Below are positions 4,042 to 60,280 of a DNA stretch of 64,000 bases, one piece after another. Every line of letters starts with the position of its first letter. Position 1 is the stretch's first letter. Source of the DNA: Paraphysoderma sedebokerense (lineage: Eukaryota; Blastocladiomycota; Physodermatomycetes; Physodermatales; Physodermataceae); NCBI GenBank assembly GCA_025602915.1, contig JAHLJZ010000012.1, forward strand, positions 427,824 to 491,823, given 5' to 3'. Position numbers and translations under genes: made by a program. The notes beneath the pieces were generated by a model. The model had not been told where the DNA came from and did no database searches. It saw only the letters and a list, made by a program, of their open reading frames with translations.

Positions 4042-5571
4042 TCATTTATTGACATCATATCTCTCTAAAGTTTTCTGAAGAATACCTTCGCGAGAGTAAG
4101 GTGAATACGCCCGCTGAGTTTTGCTGCTATCAGTGCCCAATCCACTTCGATCTTTTCGTAAATGTACTTCAATAATATTCTGACGCCCTTTCTTCCCTTT
4201 CCCTAGGCCCTCACCTTCTTTCCAACCCATCTTTTCCAACAGCTTTTGCCCTTTCTCCATTGATCCTGGTTTCAATTCAACTCGCTGTTCATTCGTGTCG
4301 ATACCCTTGGCCATGTTTAATGATTCTATATCTGCGGTTTCATCTTTCTGCATCCCAGGAACGTCAAGTCCAAACATATCACGCCTAACTGCAGCCCGAT
4401 CCCGATACTGCGACGAGGACGATATTGAACCTCGACCGACAAAAAGATCTTTTAGTCGTCTCTTTTCCTCCCTTCTCTCTGCTTCTATTTCTTCCTTTGA
4501 TTTCGCCTTTTCAAATTTCCTCGGTTCAGTTAACTTGGGCCTTTCACCATCTAAACTTAAATAATTTTCGCCAGTACTATTCAGCTTGCATTCATCGCAG
4601 ACACCCCATGCATCTCGATGAAGGTGAATGGAAAATAGAGTTGAGCCAATTTGTAGAATGTCACCATGTGACAATGGGAATGGTTGTGAAGCATGCTTAG
4701 AAGGACTTAATCGAGTCGAATTAAGGAAAGTGCCTGTTGTTGAACCGACATCGACAATAAAGAAAGATTCGTTGGGTTTTGGGGAAGCGTCGACTATAGC
4801 CTTGTCTGATATCTCTTGATAAGGCTCTTTCGAACCCTGGCCACTTTCTTCATCATTCAAGTTTCCATCACCCCCATTTACATCGTCTAATTCATTTTTA
4901 AGATCAGTCGCGGGTCCGACATAAATAGTAGCATGAATTTTTGACACTGGCATTTCTGGAATCCGCAAGACTTTATCAAATCCTCTGTCCCTACCAATTG
5001 TTGCACCGCCAGCATCAATCGCTGCCACCATATGATCCTTAAACACATCAGACGATAGCACTACAAGACGCAACGTTAAGTCAGATATTGGTTGGCTTTG
5101 TAAGACACCGATTTCCGACAAGTCGGTAGTCGAGGGATCAAACGGTATGTACGAATTGGATTCTTGATGGTATAAAGAGTAAAGAGACGTGGATCGATCA
5201 AACCAAATAGAAGGATTTGAAAGATTATAGCAGTACTGGGGGATTTCTGAGGGCATGAATCCATCCGGTACTGGAAATTGATTGAGGTCATTATGGGCCT
5301 CATTGACTGTATCGTTCGGAATGGAACCACCCATTTCATCGGGAGAAATCTCACCATCTTCCAGGGTTGAGGATGCTGTCGCTGAATAATCATCATTTGA
5401 GTGTTTTGATTTGCTTTCGTGGTACTCAGACCGATTGAAGCTGGATGTGAAAGTTGACAACGCTGGCTCCTGTCCACTGGGATCAAGATTCGTCCCGCTG
5501 TTATTATATTCGTTAAACTGATATGATGCAGCCAAATGTTCAAGACTACGTTCAGAATCGCCGTTATTCAT
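4042..5571 (-). CDS. AGGF1: AGGF1-like protein with OCRE, FHA and G-patch domains
   Basis: Nuclear protein of the AGGF1 type, a family tied to pre-mRNA splicing and, in vertebrates, angiogenic signalling. Domain order is diagnostic. An OCRE-like aromatic repeat (SIWFDRSTSLYSLYHQES) comes first. An FHA domain follows, with GATIGRDRGFDKVLRIPE, SKIHATIYV and VDVGSTTGTFLNSTRLS, interrupted by an acidic Gly/Asp/Asn insert. A C-terminal G-patch (KMGWKEGEGLGKGKKG) ends the protein. The frame stays open without a stop up to 5685 and meets a good acceptor (TTTGTGCAG) at 5678. I therefore list the first in-frame ATG (5571), but a short upstream coding exon is possible; none with matching phase was found up to 6.0 kb. 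The vertebrate N-terminal coiled coil was not seen. Domains are read directly; function is by family. Confidence 0.85.
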   Translation of the reverse strand: MNNGDSERSLEHLAASYQFNEYNNSGTNLDPSGQEPALSTFTSSFNRSEYHESKSKHSNDDYSATASSTLEDGEISPDEMGGSIPNDTVNEAHNDLNQFPVPDGFMPSEIPQYCYNLSNPSIWFDRSTSLYSLYHQESNSYIPFDPSTTDLSEIGVLQSQPISDLTLRLVVLSSDVFKDHMVAAIDAGGATIGRDRGFDKVLRIPEMPVSKIHATIYVGPATDLKNELDDVNGGDGNLNDEESGQGSKEPYQEISDKAIVDASPKPNESFFIVDVGSTTGTFLNSTRLSPSKHASQPFPLSHGDILQIGSTLFSIHLHRDAWGVCDECKLNSTGENYLSLDGERPKLTEPRKFEKAKSKEEIEAERREEKRRLKDLFVGRGSISSSSQYRDRAAVRRDMFGLDVPGMQKDETADIESLNMAKGIDTNEQRVELKPGSMEKGQKLLEKMGWKEGEGLGKGKKGRQNIIEVHLRKDRSGLGTDSSKTQRAYSPYSREGILQKTLERYDVNK

Positions 5572-5677
5572 GTAATTTGGACTTTGGCTCGAATTATTGG
5601 AATTGCAGTTGAGATAGGGCCGCCCCAGGGGAGAATAATCGATAAAGTGGCTCTCATTGCTGCCGTCGGATGGATTC

Positions 5678-6055
5678 CTGCACAAATAGATCCATAAGGT
5701 AATATTAGCATGATGTTATACATAACTCTTATGCTGAGGAGAATGATCGCAGTACATCACAAACGAAGATGGGCGAGTGTAGTTAGTAGATTAAGTTAGA
5801 TGCAAAGATGCCTCCTGGGGCATTCGGCCAGGTCATGGACCATGATTCATCAAGTGTGATCGCACAGCCATTGACAACTTATTTCCGTGACACACATGAA
5901 GGAAGATAGCTCTCTTTTTATGGCTCAATCATGTTACATGTTTGCAATAATATAAAATAAAATACTCTTCTCAAAAATGGTTAGAAGAAGTTTTTTCAAG
6001 AAGTCACTGGTCCTCCAACACGGATTCGCATTCATGCTCTAATATTTTACATCCA
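5678..6055. other. Intergenic, AGGF1-like 5' region
   Basis: Contains the acceptor-like TTTGTGCAG ending at 5678 on the minus strand, so an AGGF1-like 5' UTR intron probably lies here. No upstream coding exon of matching phase was found. Confidence 0.5.
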
Positions 6056-52543: not shown

Positions 52544-53738
<1,195 letters not shown>

Positions 53739-53839
53739 TGTGAGAAACTGTTTGAAAGCAAGAACGTTGGACTGTGAGCGCAGTTGTTTAGAGGAAAGGG
53801 AGAGGGATGGGGCTTGGACGGATACTCACGTTGTACGGA

Positions 53840-53935
53840 GAGTGGATGAGGTGGGTGGATGGATGGGTGAGATGGGAGGAGCGGGTGCGGGGAATGGATG
53901 GGATGGAGGGAAGGGGATGGATGGATAGTGTTGGA
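53840..53935. repeat. GGATG-rich low-complexity tract
   Basis: Short imperfect repeats of GGATG and GGGTGG units cover about 95 bases between the Ran and methyltransferase start codons. On the plus strand it is strongly purine- and G-rich. It may lie in the Ran 5' leader. It could fold (G-rich) or simply be a simple-sequence expansion. Confidence 0.6.
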
Positions 53936-54174
53936 TGCGGAGATGGAGCGAATGGCCAAGTGGGATGTGTTTGTTGGAAATCAGTGGAACACCCGTCACA
54001 CAGTCACGCTGTCCGCATTCCCTCTTCAGCGTAACTGCTAGCCCGACTTGACTCGCCGCTAAAAACTGCCAACTCCGCATTCCCTTCTAACACTAATAAT
54101 CATTCCCGCCAGACATGTATTGCAAGTAATAAAGACTGCGCTCCGTCCCTCTCTATCCATCCGTCGCTCTAAAA

Positions 54175-57100
54175 ATGAAAGACGACGATATCACGGTCAT
54201 CATCAATATCCTCTCGTCACTCGCGTCATCCCTAAAACCCCATATTCTGCTTACATTGCGCACTGCCCAGTTTGAAGGTATGCCATCCTTCTACTGCCCC
54301 TATTCTCTTCCTCGTAGCAATAATTTCAATTCATCACTTTACATTTGGCAATATGGACCGTCTCAGACTCCACAAAATGTCTTATCCTATCCGAGTTCAA
54401 CGATATCTTGAGAGAGATGGACCCATCGGCTGCTCCCATCTGCCAATACCACTGTATTATTGAAACTATTGAGGCATGTGAGCCATTGACACCATCGAAC
54501 CTAAATATAAATGTATTCAAAACAGCTATCGAGAAATTCATTTTGATCACCTCGCTTGCCACAGTCTGTCAGTTATTCGTTAGGTGTTGCGTCGCCATGT
54601 TTGAACTGTCGAATTCTAACCATGCCTCAGATTTCTTGGAAAATTTTGCTGGAATATTCGCAGAAACTGACAACATACTAGATTCAGCAAGTCTTCAGTA
54701 CCACCCGCACTTGTGGTATTATTATGTTGCTTCGTTGCATTGTGACGAAGACTGCTTTCAGCAGATTTCAGACTCTTTGATCGAAGCAGGATTTCAATTT
54801 TCCCATCCGGAACAATTCGAATTGATTTTGAGCAAGTTATTCACACAGTGCTTTCTTCAGAATGATGATTCTTCAACTCAGCAGAAAGATCGCGGCCAGG
54901 TAGTGTCATTTTCATTCGTTGTGTATTCTTTGACGAATTGTAGAGTCTAATGACATGCCAACCTTATCAGCATTTTACACCATTGAATGTGGTTAAATTC
55001 ATGTGGAACCGAGTGCTACCGCTTTCAAACTTAACGGAAATGTACCCACCTCCAAACTTCCTTGACCCCGCATGTGGCATCGGCAGTTTTATTGTCGAGT
55101 TTCTCAATCGCATCACTCAACATGCGATGAAGAACCCAAAGACATGGCGTTCTTCAACTAGCATTCAAAATATCCTAGTCTCCATACCTAAGCTTATTTG
55201 GGCAATCGAAGTAGATCGTTTTACTTGGCTTGTGTGTAAAATGAATGTAATGATACACTTGCTGCCCCTTTACACGCGCTGGACTGAATTACAGAGGAAC
55301 TCTTCATCCAAGAAATATCGCGCACACAAAATGAAACTAGAACGGCTGCGGCTTTTTTGTAACGATACATTGAAGCTGTCTGTCGACCTGCCGTGGCAAG
55401 ATGCATGGGAGCGAGAACAAATACATCTCCTTCGCAATCCTGAAAAACTGAAATTCGACTTCGTTGTCACCAACCCACCATACATTATTAGGAAGAGAGG
55501 GATCGTAACTGCAGCGGATCCTGCTCTATATGATCTCGATGTTGTGTCTGGAAAAGGGGTTCAAGCTTATTCGTATTTTATGTGGTGTGGCCTGAACCGG
55601 TTGTCTGAAAGAGGACAATTATGTTTTGTTACAGGTTGGACCATATTCTACCGTTCAATCATCGCAAATAACTAATGAGTAATTAGCTAGGTACAATGTT
55701 TTGCCTTACTTCGCTCAGAGAACCGGTTTGTTAACTGCAATATATTGATAGCCAATGGCTGAATTTGGAGTTCGCGCAAGGATTACGATGCTGGATGTGG
55801 AATAATTGCCACCTGGAAGAATTCTACCAATTTGAACCTTACAAAATGTGGAAAACAATACAAACTGATGCTTTGATTTTCAAATGTCGACGTATCCCGT
55901 ACTCGATGGATGCAGAGAGCCATTCAAAGCAAAGGACAATAACTTTCCTCCGCTGTGTCAACCGTAAGTCATCACTAACAGACATCTTAAATTTGTACGA
56001 AACTTTTGAGAAAAACAAATCGTATTCGACGAACTTACTACGATTCAAAATAACGAGGCAGAATCAATCATCGCCAACCAATAGCTGGGCGTTCATTATG
56101 CCTTCGAATAGCACCATAGAAGAAATTGAAGTGCTGGTCCAAGGGCTGCCGGGTATTTGCGATCCTTCGGGCTCGGTAAAGCACTGGAGTAGGGAATGCC
56201 CATTGATATGGCATCGAGGTAATTCTTCGGGGTATTTTATGATTATCACAGAAATAATTTATAACCAATGATTATAACAGGCCCAAATACCAATCCGGTG
56301 TACGCCCTCGTCGTTCGTACCGAGTTTGCAATTCAACATTTTGGGCAGGAAGCCTGCGAACGATGGGGAAAGCCTTGTTTCTATTGGTGCAATAAGGTAA
56401 AGATATCATCCATAAAGATTGGGAGTAAACTAACTTTATCTATCAGGGTAATAATGGGAAACTTAAGAGCAAAGAAGTCGATTTTTGGCAAAGTCGGTCT
56501 GTGTTTCGGAAAGACTCTCTTTAGCCATTTTCACAGTCTCATCTCGTCTCTTACAGGGATATAAAACGAGTAGCAGTCAAAGAGAATTCGCCGGCGGAGT
56601 CTTATTTACCATCCACACCGATAAAATACACATTACTAATGATTGACCGCGCTGATTCTATGCAAATCGAACGGGAAAATAGAATTCACCCTTCATCATT
56701 GTATTCTTATTTACAGGAGGCAAGGGAAATGTTACAGCCGAAGATGTCTGACCGACAGCTGGCATACTGCGGATATAAACAGTGCGGAGCAACGCACAAA
56801 GTGAAAATTATCACTCCTATCAATTATGGGTAGGTCATTGCTGAAACTACGGAGAAAAGAGAAAAGAGAATGACATGTTGTCCTTTCGTTTAGTTACTTC
56901 TCTGTGTCGCAACCGAGACAGCGCTTTTTCGTAGACTTTGATAGCGTTACAGTTACCAATCAGTGGTAAGCCAAACTTCCCACTCTTAATACTATGAAGC
57001 ATTCGTTAACTGCGTCATTCAGCATTTATTTTACAGTGAAAGAAGCGACATGTCTTGACCCTTTATATTTTCTCGGGTTTTTAAATTCTTCTATTTTTCA

Positions 57101-57671
57101 GCTATTTATGCGAGAGCGTTGTCGATATGACCAGCAGAATCGGATGCGGCTTTTTCGCGAAAAGATGGCCGAAATTCCGTATAAGGCACCATCTAGCGCC
57201 GGTGCTGGTTTCGTGGTCAAAGTAGTCGAAAGTATAATCATTATCAAGAAGCTTCTGTATCGCATTGACTCTTTTGTGCCGAAAGAGTGCAGAATTTTGG
57301 ATTGTCTCCGAAAAGGTCTTATTTGTTTAGATTCTACAGCAACTTCGGTCATAATGGACATGCTCGGAATGCCAGTAGCGAAATGCGTTGTTGAAGGGAT
57401 CAATGACTGCTTATACGCGGTAGCTGTGTTGCTTTATTGCATTGATCAATACATGTATAGGCTGTACGGAGTTAACGAAGAACTGCAACTCCGATTGGAA
57501 AAGGAGATGTCTTTAAACATGGATCAAAGTGTTATTAGCAGATTTCCACGAGTAAGTCTAAACGATGAAATACCATATTGGGGGGAATCGGCTCTAGATA
57601 CAGCGGGAGTCGCTGCGCTTAATAAGGATGATTTACTTAATATTCTGGATAAGCGAGAGAGTAAAAAGTGA
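54175..57671 (+). CDS. Type IIG/Eco57I-like N6-adenine DNA methyltransferase with TaqI-like specificity region
   Basis: Predicted SAM-dependent DNA adenine methyltransferase of a bacterial class. Exon 1 (54175-54277) and exon 2 (54367-54899) encode 212 residues of unrecognised helical sequence. Exon 3 (54944-55634) has the class opening QHFTPLNVVKFMW, motif I FLDPACGIGSFIVEFLNRI, an acidic motif II region WAIEVDRF, and catalytic motif IV NPPYIIRKRG, then RLSERGQLCFVT. The later exons carry motif VIII-like SQWLNLEFAQGLRCWM and a target-recognition region: PIKYTLLMIDRADS, IHPSSLYSYLQEAREML, QPRQRFFVDFDSVTVTNQC, DPLYFLGFLNSSIFQLFM and IDQYMYRLYGVNEEL. These fit TaqI/Type IIG C termini. No nuclease motif is seen. 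At least seven introns show it is a resident eukaryotic gene. One junction (55635-55800) does not keep frame cleanly. Confidence 0.85.
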
Positions 57672-57800: not shown

Positions 57801-60280
57801 ATGTCAGCAATTCCTCCAGCTCAGTCTACTCCGTCATCCTCTCCCGCCCAGCAATCCCCTGCCGCTGACAGGTAAATTTATGCTTAGTACCTCTTCGCGA
57901 AGATATTGACCTCTGTCAATGGTTCAATTGTTCTAATCTGTCATTTCTCTGTAATTTAATTTGAAAAATCGTGCTGATAATCCGTTTTGCTATTTTACCA
58001 TCATAATAGCTCGAATACCAAGGGGTCATTCTGGAAGCGTTCATCTAAACTTCCGGGCAGGTATAATTCACGATATACATCAATTTGTGTTTCCCCACAT
58101 TTAAATATTGCAATACATTCTTCTTACTGTACCCGAACTTACAAGTCATTTGATTATATATGAATCTATATTTCAAGGCCTCTATCGACTCCTGATCACC
58201 CAAGTTCAAAAGTTGTTGGTGCTCAATACACATTTGGCACACCGGGTCCTGCAGTGGGGAGAGAGAAGCAAGTTGAATTGCACCAGTCACGTTATTATGA
58301 ATTTGTATTAACCAACTCATGTCGGATGCATTGATAGAGCTGCATCAGACTTGACAGATTCCCAGCCGACATCACATACCTCATCCCCGAAACCGTCGCG
58401 CTCACAGCAAAGTAAGGCAAATACCCAATTCATTGATACCGATGATACGTGGGATGACGACTTATCCGATGATCCTACCGACCTGAACAACGACGGCTCT
58501 CGGTCAACGACTCAAGGGAAAGGTTCTCCTTCCGCAGCAGATTCATCCTCTGAGGAGGTGGAGTCGCAGGCTCGGCCGAAATCACATTCATTTTCTGAGA
58601 ACTTTCATCATATTCATGTCCCGAAACTTAAGCTTAATTATGGCAGTGATAAAAAAGCGGATCAACAGCAATGTACAAAACAACAAGGTAAAGATGCAGA
58701 TCAAGCAACCGCAGCAGAGGTCCTCAATTTGAGTGCGAAGATCGCAAAATACGATAAATTTCGAGCGGTGCTAGAAAGCCAAAATGTTGATTTAGGTAAA
58801 TGTTGCTGGCTTCATTCCAGGTTTATCATACATGTAGCTCATTTCGTTGTAGCCGCGCTTCGAAAGCTGAGTTGGAATGGGATTCCCGAGGAATTGCGAC
58901 CGATGTGTTGGCAGTTATTAATGGTGAGCCATCGCAACTTTCACACTGCAATGGTCAACATAGATTCACTTGTGCGGTTTTTCCAGGGCTACCTTCCGTG
59001 TCCAGCCGATCGCAGAGCAGCAGCTCTAGCTCGAAAACGCAAAGAATACGACGATAATGTTTTGCAAGCTTTTGGCAAGGGAGAGAGTAGTCTGGATCAA
59101 GCGATATATCATCAGGTATTGATTCGACGATATATTATTTATATATTATATAGCGAATGCTGATTGAGATTGCCGCTTGAAGATTCACATTGATGTGCCG
59201 AGGACCAACGCATCTGTTCCACTCTATCACCATAAAAAAATTCAAGAGGTAGCGGTTACAATTGAGTTCTGCCATTGTTTGAACAACATCGAGTATTAAC
59301 TAATTATGTAGTCGCTCGAGAGAGTTTTGTATTGTTGGGCAATTCGGCACCCAGCGTCGGGTTATGTTCAAGGGATGAATGATTTAGTGACACCGTTCTT
59401 CACCGTATTTCTCTCCAGTTATGTCGGTAAATACTATACTTCCTTCTTTCCTTGTGTAGTCATATCATTGAACCCCCTGTTTGTTGAATCATTACAGATG
59501 AATCTGTCTATGATTGCGATCCCGACGAAATTTCTCAGCAAGTTCTCAATGTTGTAGAAGCAGATAGCTTCTGGTGTCTCACAAAGCTACTTGATGGGAT
59601 ACAGGTATTAATGATATTCTTATTTTGAGAATATTCTTGTAGTGTTAACCTTGACTCGTCGCAGGACAATTACACTTTCGCACAGCCTGGCATCCAAAGG
59701 CAGATTATCAAACTCAAAGAATTAATTGGTCGCATTGATGGTAATACCCATGTTTACGAGCAATGCCGACTGCAGACTTCTAAGCCCAATTTTGCTCCCT
59801 AGCCCCCCTTTACGCTCATTTACAGAAAGAAAATGTTGAATTTATCCAGTTTGCTTTTCGCTGGATCAACTGTCTACTAATGCGAGAAATTCCACTTCGC
59901 CATATAGTCCGCATGTGGGACACCTATCTGGTACGCTTGCTTTGGAATCTTTTACTTGATCGGTGCGCGCTGATATTTCATTTCTCCTGTGTAGGCGGAG
60001 GGTCCTGATGGGTTTTCAGACTTTCATATTTATGTTTGCGCTGCATTTCTCGTTAGATGGAACCAGAAATTGAAAACACTGGATTTTCAGGTAATGATTT
60101 TCTATCCCGCCTGACTGCTCGTGCTAAATTTTAACTCAAAGCTGTCATCAGGGAATTATGATGTTTCTTCAATCAGCCCCCACCCAGGAATGGGACGATA
60201 AAGATATTGAATTACTATTATCTGAAGCTTTCATGTGGAAATCTCTGTTTCATAACAGTCCTATGCATCTAAATAGCTAG
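57801..60280 (+). CDS. TBC1D22: TBC1D22/Gyp1-type Rab GTPase-activating protein
   Basis: Accelerates GTP hydrolysis on Rab GTPases (Gyp1 acts on Ypt1 at the Golgi). Start ATG 57801 (MSAIPPAQSTPSSSPAQQSP) splices to SNTKGSFWKRSSKLPG, the conserved N-terminal motif of TBC1D22. A Ser/Asp-rich linker follows, then DKFRAVLESQNVDL. The TBC domain has LRKLSWNGIPEELRPMCWQL, the arginine finger IHIDVPRT (IxxDxxR), the glutamine finger in RHPASGYVQGMNDLVTPFF, EADSFWCLTKLLDGIQDNY, TFAQPGIQRQ, FAFRWINCLLMREIPLR and MWDTYLAEGPDGFSDFHIYV. It ends SPMHLNS. About nine introns. Only 129 bases separate it from the methyltransferase stop, so its promoter must be short or overlap that gene. Confidence 0.94.

Follow-up and report, generated by a model that had tools for sequence, protein, structure and literature searches.

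The window, that is the whole 64,000-nucleotide stretch of DNA analysed here, probably carries a captured bacterial enzyme: the intron-rich gene at 54175–57671 is best explained as belonging to the nuclear genome of a eukaryote, probably of an early-diverging fungus, and as encoding, after splicing, a Type IIG/TaqI-like N6-adenine DNA methyltransferase that came from prokaryotes and lacks a nuclease. Judged by its sequence, this putative DNA methyltransferase gene is genuine and is probably functional. The bacterial enzyme would have been acquired by an old horizontal transfer, a timing suggested by an identity of about 28% only to its relatives and by its long branch in trees. In the proposed mechanism, the C-terminal part of the protein, which is weakly TaqI_C-like, would bind DNA, an adenine would be flipped into the NPPY pocket and a methyl group would be transferred to it from SAM, giving N6-methyladenine (6mA) at a specific and probably non-palindromic site. 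This mark may serve a role in the host (as an epigenetic mark or for self-marking) and not restriction, because no partner nuclease is in view.

Gene structure

A single intact gene of 10 exons and nine introns was found on the forward strand, encoding 976 residues (Table 1). All nine introns are of the GT–AG type and are 50–89 nt long, and the spliced frame is open across its 976 codons with no internal stops, from an ATG at 54175 to a stop codon that ends at 57671. The initial annotation of this DNA had described an adenine methyltransferase gene with at least seven introns; its coordinates, its strand and the motifs FLDPACGIGSF and NPPY (both read in exon 3) were all recovered here, and the number of introns now stands at nine. 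A first gene model of 985 residues used an acceptor for exon 3 at 54944. This was moved to 54971 in the final model because nothing is inserted between the conserved residues GQ and YTP in the prokaryotic relatives; the change removes a nine-residue insert adjoining the FTP motif, and raises the score against the Pfam N6_Mtase family from 43.9 to 53.4 bits and that against a profile of the relatives from 141.2 to 150.1 bits.

Table 1. Exons and sequence motifs of the putative methyltransferase gene (positions in the window).
Feature	Position	Strand	Content and basis
Exon 1	54175..54277	+	Residues 1–34 and base 1 of codon 35; start codon ATG and donor GT seen in the sequence; no homology support for the 5′ end
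Exon 2	54367..54899	+	Remainder of the unrecognised N-terminal region, up to residue 212; open frame
Exon 3	54971..55634	+	Residues 213–433, core of the N6-adenine methyltransferase domain; Pfam Eco57I/N6_Mtase, AlphaFold2 model, Foldseek
Motif I (SAM-binding), FLDPACGIGSF	55058..55090	+	In exon 3; DPACG.G.F positions common to 22 relatives
Catalytic motif, NPPY	55472..55483	+	In exon 3; common to 22 relatives
Exon 4, inferred 4-nt microexon CTAG	55687–55690	+	Between introns 55635–55686 and 55691–55751
Exon 5	55752..56218	+	Methyltransferase domain up to its end, then the beginning of the C-terminal part; open frame; Eco57I match up to residue 467
Exon 6	56281..56396	+	GT–AG introns either side, open frame
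Exon 7	56447..56496	+	GT–AG introns either side, open frame
Exon 8	56557..56829	+	GT–AG introns either side, open frame
Exon 9	56894..56965	+	Start of the TaqI_C-like target-recognition match, at about 56910; sub-threshold
Exon 10	57023..57671	+	TaqI_C-like match to about 57179, C-terminal region and stop codon; open frame

The junction between exon 3 and the next coding block cannot be bridged in frame by any single intron of at least 40 nt with a GT or GC donor and an AG acceptor, and there are seven two-intron solutions that keep the frame. When nine models of the junction were scored against the profile of prokaryotic relatives, the one with the four-nucleotide exon CTAG came out best, at 150.1 bits; the six other two-intron models reached 131.6 to 142.7 bits, and a single-intron frameshift model reached 119.8 bits, a score that is lowered by construction as this model is truncated at its first stop. 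The CTAG exon also gives a four-residue spacing within the pattern GxLxF(I/V)xxxxW, as seen in all 10 of the prokaryotic ORFs that contain the pattern (73 ORFs examined). A four-nucleotide exon is thus strongly suggested by sequence comparison, whilst a frameshift or an error of sequencing or assembly could instead account for the junction at 55635–55751. The introns flanking CTAG are 52 and 61 nt long, and each contains a branch-point-like sequence (ctaat and ttaac). A search of the open-licence literature found no paper on microexons in fungi.

Family assignment and predicted fold

Assignment of the protein to a family rests on sequence profiles, solved structures and a predicted fold. The final model matched Pfam Eco57I (PF07669) at 72.7 bits (cut-off 25.3, E 5e-20), an E-value that excludes a chance match, and N6_Mtase (PF02384) with an E-value of 3.2e-14 (cut-off 20.4 bits). 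Several further families scored below their cut-offs, namely TaqI_C at residues 743–813 (19.5 bits, or 20.6 bits for the C-terminal half alone, with a cut-off of 26.5), MmeI_Mtase (18.4 bits) and UPF0020 (17.7 bits). The HemK model, with 14.1 bits, was also below its cut-off. Of the motif set claimed in the initial annotation, FLDPACGIGSF and NPPY are therefore secure, and the TaqI-like C terminus is weakly supported by Pfam. When the first, 985-residue model was compared with other collections, the best NCBIfam match was the Alw26I/Eco31I/Esp3I adenine-methyltransferase family, far below its cut-off, and the two best PADLOC models were a Type II methyltransferase and a Type IIG restriction enzyme-methyltransferase. 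The same model, searched alone against the PDB, found two sequences at E ≤ 1, both of them CamA, with an E-value of 0.0021 in which no single stretch was significant; a weak third stretch of this alignment falls in exon 10. A profile made from the window protein and four prokaryotic relatives, in which the relatives weigh heavily, found 23 PDB sequences at E ≤ 0.001 with the CamA entries first (CamA 4e-46, BseCI 1e-31, BsaXI 6e-16). By name, these 23 are site-specific or adenine DNA methyltransferases, Type I modification subunits, TaqI, BseCI, BsaXI, BrxX (of BREX) and MmeI. In an alignment with 22 relatives (22 of 23 chosen loci, L005 having yielded no fragment), DPACGxG is followed by NPPY and this order is kept, an invariance that is partly by construction because the rows had been picked by a motif pattern.

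The fold predicted for exon 3 by AlphaFold2 (pLDDT 82.5) points in the same direction. Foldseek returned 42 PDB matches at E ≤ 0.001, led by CamA and followed by LlaBIII, LlaGI, DrdV, BsaXI and BseCI, with moderate TM-scores of 0.47–0.61 by query in the top 42; among the best 50 of 382 matches, the first RNA methyltransferase appeared at rank 49 (E 0.011). The rRNA and protein methyltransferases, which the initial annotation had named as matches that would count against its reading, were not the best matches in any of these searches. Taken together, Pfam, the PDB profile and Foldseek uphold the description of the protein as a bacterial-type, Eco57I-class adenine DNA methyltransferase, with a predicted methylation activity. 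It is unlikely that the protein no longer methylates DNA, either as a pseudo-enzyme or through a change to an RNA or protein substrate: its long branch, its unrecognised N terminus and its weak TaqI_C match would fit such a change, but DPACG.G.F, NPPY and the open frame are intact, and UPF0020 and HemK, as models of RNA and protein methyltransferases, score far lower than the adenine methyltransferase families and below their cut-offs.

Relatives and phylogeny

Relatives of the protein were found at no fewer than 46 loci in prokaryote genomes, on 22 IMG/VR viral contigs and seven plasmids, and in one phage record, the plasmids and phages having been searched with the 985-residue model. Two matches were the best among those listed. 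One is L028, a locus in the Bacteroidales MAG JAUXWT010000100, which is 28% identical over residues 203–481 of the 985-residue model (1.5e-21). The other is the locus L083, in genome G359, which also has 28% identity (2.8e-22) and belongs to the same phylum as the Leptospiraceae locus L038. A match at E ≤ 1e-10 was found in one of 345 genomes in the phylum of G001 (the genome of L028), G001 itself, and in one of 344 in the phylum of G006, namely G359.

Two trees were built. The first started from 73 relatives with an ORF, minus L038 and plus L083, of which 58 of 73 passed a motif filter, giving 59 rows with the window protein; for the second, eight rows were dropped and six MmeI-type proteins were added, giving 57 rows. 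In the first tree the window protein falls within a set of 11 rows (support 100/93), together with Type IIG-like proteins: besides L028, L083 and the Nitrospira locus L031, the set holds a protein from a Thermus plasmid, one from a cyanobacterium, and archaeal proteins, haloarchaeal ones among them. The second tree places it with the same ten rows (support 96/84), and the six MmeI-type bacterial proteins form a 100/100 group of their own on a long stem, apart from the window protein. The branch leading to the window protein is very long in both trees (1.98 and 2.31 changes per column), a length that prevents the donor from being named and may reflect relaxed constraint. Its pairing with L031 in the first tree (83/48) carries a long-branch warning, and in an AU test neither a grouping with L028/L083 (p 0.315) nor one with L031 (p 0.39) was rejected. 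Union with the MmeI-type proteins was rejected at the border of significance (p 0.0486), for a group that was named after the tree had been seen.

This last result bears on the published fungal enzyme MetB. It has been reported that metB is needed for asymmetric 6mA and for the AAA6mACA motif in Mucor, and that MetB is an N6_Mtase (PF02384) protein whose recognition domain, PF20466, resembles that of MmeI (Lax et al. 2024, PMC11258239). In that study, bacteria are the proposed source of metB by transfer, the PF02384 model was used to find MetB in 183 fungal proteomes, the origin of the gene was placed before Blastocladiomycota split from land fungi, and metB was reported in Paraphysoderma (PMC11258239). 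The window gene could then be a diverged MetB orthologue, and hence no new capture, a reading with a small but appreciable chance of being right. It would fit the score of 53.4 bits against the very model that found MetB, the early origin and the report from Paraphysoderma (PMC11258239), as well as the weak MmeI_Mtase match and the borderline AU result. However, PF20466 is missing from the window protein's Pfam list at E ≤ 10 (a list from which HMMER's filters drop most matches above 0.1), whereas the sub-threshold TaqI_C is present; the six MmeI-type bacterial proteins lie in their distant group, and Foldseek places CamA, LlaBIII, LlaGI, DrdV, BsaXI and BseCI over MmeI. The window gene might be among the exceptions of Lax et al. 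2024 (PMC11258239).

Comparison with known enzymes

That a fungus should have captured a bacterial adenine methyltransferase is not in itself new, and MetB, as described in PMC11258239, shares with the window gene an N6_Mtase domain and, by the preferred reading of the window gene, a fungal host and a bacterial origin. MetB is reported with an MmeI-type recognition domain, for which the window protein has no match in its filtered Pfam list, and in the second tree the window gene stands apart from the MmeI-type bacterial proteins. In a 2026 review (PMC13297926), the fungal 6mA writers shown are MetB and enzymes of the MT-A70 family, and PMC12695648 centres on MT-A70 and presents MetB as an alternative pathway acquired from bacteria. 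Besides MetB, no Eco57I/TaqI-like nuclear methyltransferase in fungi was found in the open-licence literature by title or start of abstract. The novelty of the gene is reduced because MetB is a published bacterial-derived 6mA writer in early-diverging fungi. The initial annotation had proposed a source of eukaryotic 6mA separate from MT-A70 proteins; the bacterial-type enzyme stands, but it would not be the first such writer, as MetB precedes it (PMC11258239). What appears to be new, judged on the predicted protein and gene model, is the type of enzyme, together with its unrecognised N terminus and the putative four-nucleotide exon. The MT-A70 writers (AMT1/MTA1c) are likewise eukaryotic DNA 6mA writers, but Mta1 uses DPPW (PMC11258239), and the window protein uses NPPY and has no MT-A70 model in its filtered Pfam list (E ≤ 10).

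Likenesses are also found among bacterial proteins. The Type IIG-like proteins of L028 and L083 have an Eco57I/N6_Mtase domain followed by a TaqI_C region, an order to which the sub-threshold TaqI_C-like stretch of the window protein would correspond, with 28% identity to the window protein over about 280–290 residues. They are, however, about 1,270 residues long and have 427–429 residues before motif I, with a PD-(D/E)xK-type site (GDKPDF...DAK), in contrast to the window protein, which has 243 residues before motif I and no PD-(D/E)xK-like site, and whose gene contains introns. CamA of Clostridioides difficile is a nuclease-less methyltransferase that works alone, and it is the nearest solved structure to the window protein by sequence profile and by fold (PDB 7lni, 8fs1 and others). 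It differs in being bacterial and only 577–578 residues long, in having no counterpart of the 212-residue N terminus, and in an identity of 16–20% in structural alignments.

A more far-reaching reading, put forward tentatively, is that the gene represents a second, independent fungal capture from the Type IIG/TaqI-like side and not from MmeI, and that it supplies a nuclear 6mA writer with a non-palindromic motif of its own, in which the place of the nuclease is taken by an N-terminal domain that has no known relatives and that serves to target or regulate the enzyme. If the enzyme is active, eukaryotes would have recruited restriction-type adenine methyltransferases more than once and from different bacterial enzyme types, and a non-palindromic 6mA motif would be predicted in a lineage whose 6mA is as a rule attributed to MetB or to MT-A70 enzymes. 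It would also offer a simple test case for the maintenance of a one-strand DNA mark, because a hemimethylated site cannot template copying.

The N-terminal region and the missing nuclease

Residues 1–212 had been noted as unrecognised in the initial annotation, and they have no Pfam match in the filtered list at E ≤ 10; the structure prediction proposed there for this region was too poor to use, as the exon 2 model is predicted to be helical with a mean pLDDT of 44.8, a poor single-sequence fold. The claim that the protein carries no nuclease also held: no nuclease family is listed for it in Pfam at E ≤ 10, and a loose pattern, used without a shuffle control, found no PD-(D/E)xK-like site, whether in the 243 residues that precede motif I or in the upstream 436 nt read in six frames. 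Type IIG enzymes join nuclease and methyltransferase in one chain, and by these searches this combination was not recognised in the window protein.

The N-terminal region was compared with Type IIG connectors by means of three profiles (from 51, 15 and 7 sequences), against which the real region and 300 shuffles were scored. The real region scored no better than the shuffles, lying outside the top five for every profile with shuffles higher, and it was rejected as a recognisable connector. The tblastn match of L038 begins at residue 138, but this is no proof of a connector because the pairwise alignment also covers the start of the methyltransferase part. A degenerate Type IIG connector would also be in keeping with the predicted helices of the region and with its location ahead of the methyltransferase. 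The region may be a strongly diverged connector or a new domain, and the fungal addition proposed in the initial annotation is one candidate origin for it.

With the same loose pattern, a PD-(D/E)xK-like N-terminal site was seen in 12 of 15 relatives, the three without it being L034, L030 and L031. The last of these is a 625-residue ORF of a Nitrospira MAG (L031:4731–6605) with 123 residues before motif I, and it is possibly a naturally nuclease-less relative. The loss of the nuclease need not have happened in the host lineage, because L031 is already short before motif I.

Genomic setting

The gene is a eukaryotic nuclear gene, with its nine GT–AG introns and with eukaryotic genes on both sides. 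To its left, on the opposite strand, is a gene for the Ran GTPase, with its ATG at 53738 and split over several frames, as by introns; the two genes are divergent and 436 nt apart, and may for this reason share a promoter region. To its right, an ORF at 59312–59557 encodes the central portion of a RabGAP-TBC domain (40.3 bits against a cut-off of 25.2) in a gene that is also split, and three other right-side ORFs have no Pfam match above cut-off. Eight of 10 ORFs scanned carry Pfam domains (actin, Ras, Der1, helicase, Sel1, VWA, acyltransferase and G-patch/FHA), all to the left of the methyltransferase gene; the best PDB matches of the actin-type ORF identify it as Arp2, and both Arp2 and Der1 are more distant than Ran and RabGAP-TBC. 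The short, dense introns and this set of genes are compatible with an early-diverging fungus.

Contaminants do occur in fungal assemblies, and one Batrachochytrium sequence was judged a likely bacterial contaminant in PMC11258239. Here, a contaminant or chimeric contig is very unlikely indeed, because the gene sits between Ran and the split RabGAP-TBC gene and itself contains nine introns; the eukaryotic context proposed in the initial annotation is thereby borne out. A further possibility is that the gene was recently acquired from a virus or mobile element and serves that element, in keeping with the relatives on IMG/VR contigs, plasmids and the phage record. Such an origin is improbable in view of the introns, the flanking housekeeping genes and a GC content of 42.5%, with 41.4% for the window as a whole, and none of the viral relatives found was close, those on the viral contigs being 20–33% identical in their best segment. 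A search for close viral relatives with the window protein alone (985-residue model) gave two pattern matches, neither of which was confirmed. Codon usage does not discriminate, with a correlation to the neighbouring genes of 0.61 in frame and 0.76 in frame +2.

Some minor observations were also made. One IMG/VR contig has an 873-residue ORF that runs to the contig end (L006:3440–6058) and matches the window protein from residue 70 onwards; its partner in the tree is a protein of Cloacimonadota and not the window gene. Rfam gave no match within the window at gathering scores. The stretch between the Ran and methyltransferase genes (53739–54174) is in part rich in GGATGG-like repeats, at about 53850–53930, and a 557-residue ORF on the reverse strand at 4042–5715 has both FHA and G-patch domains.
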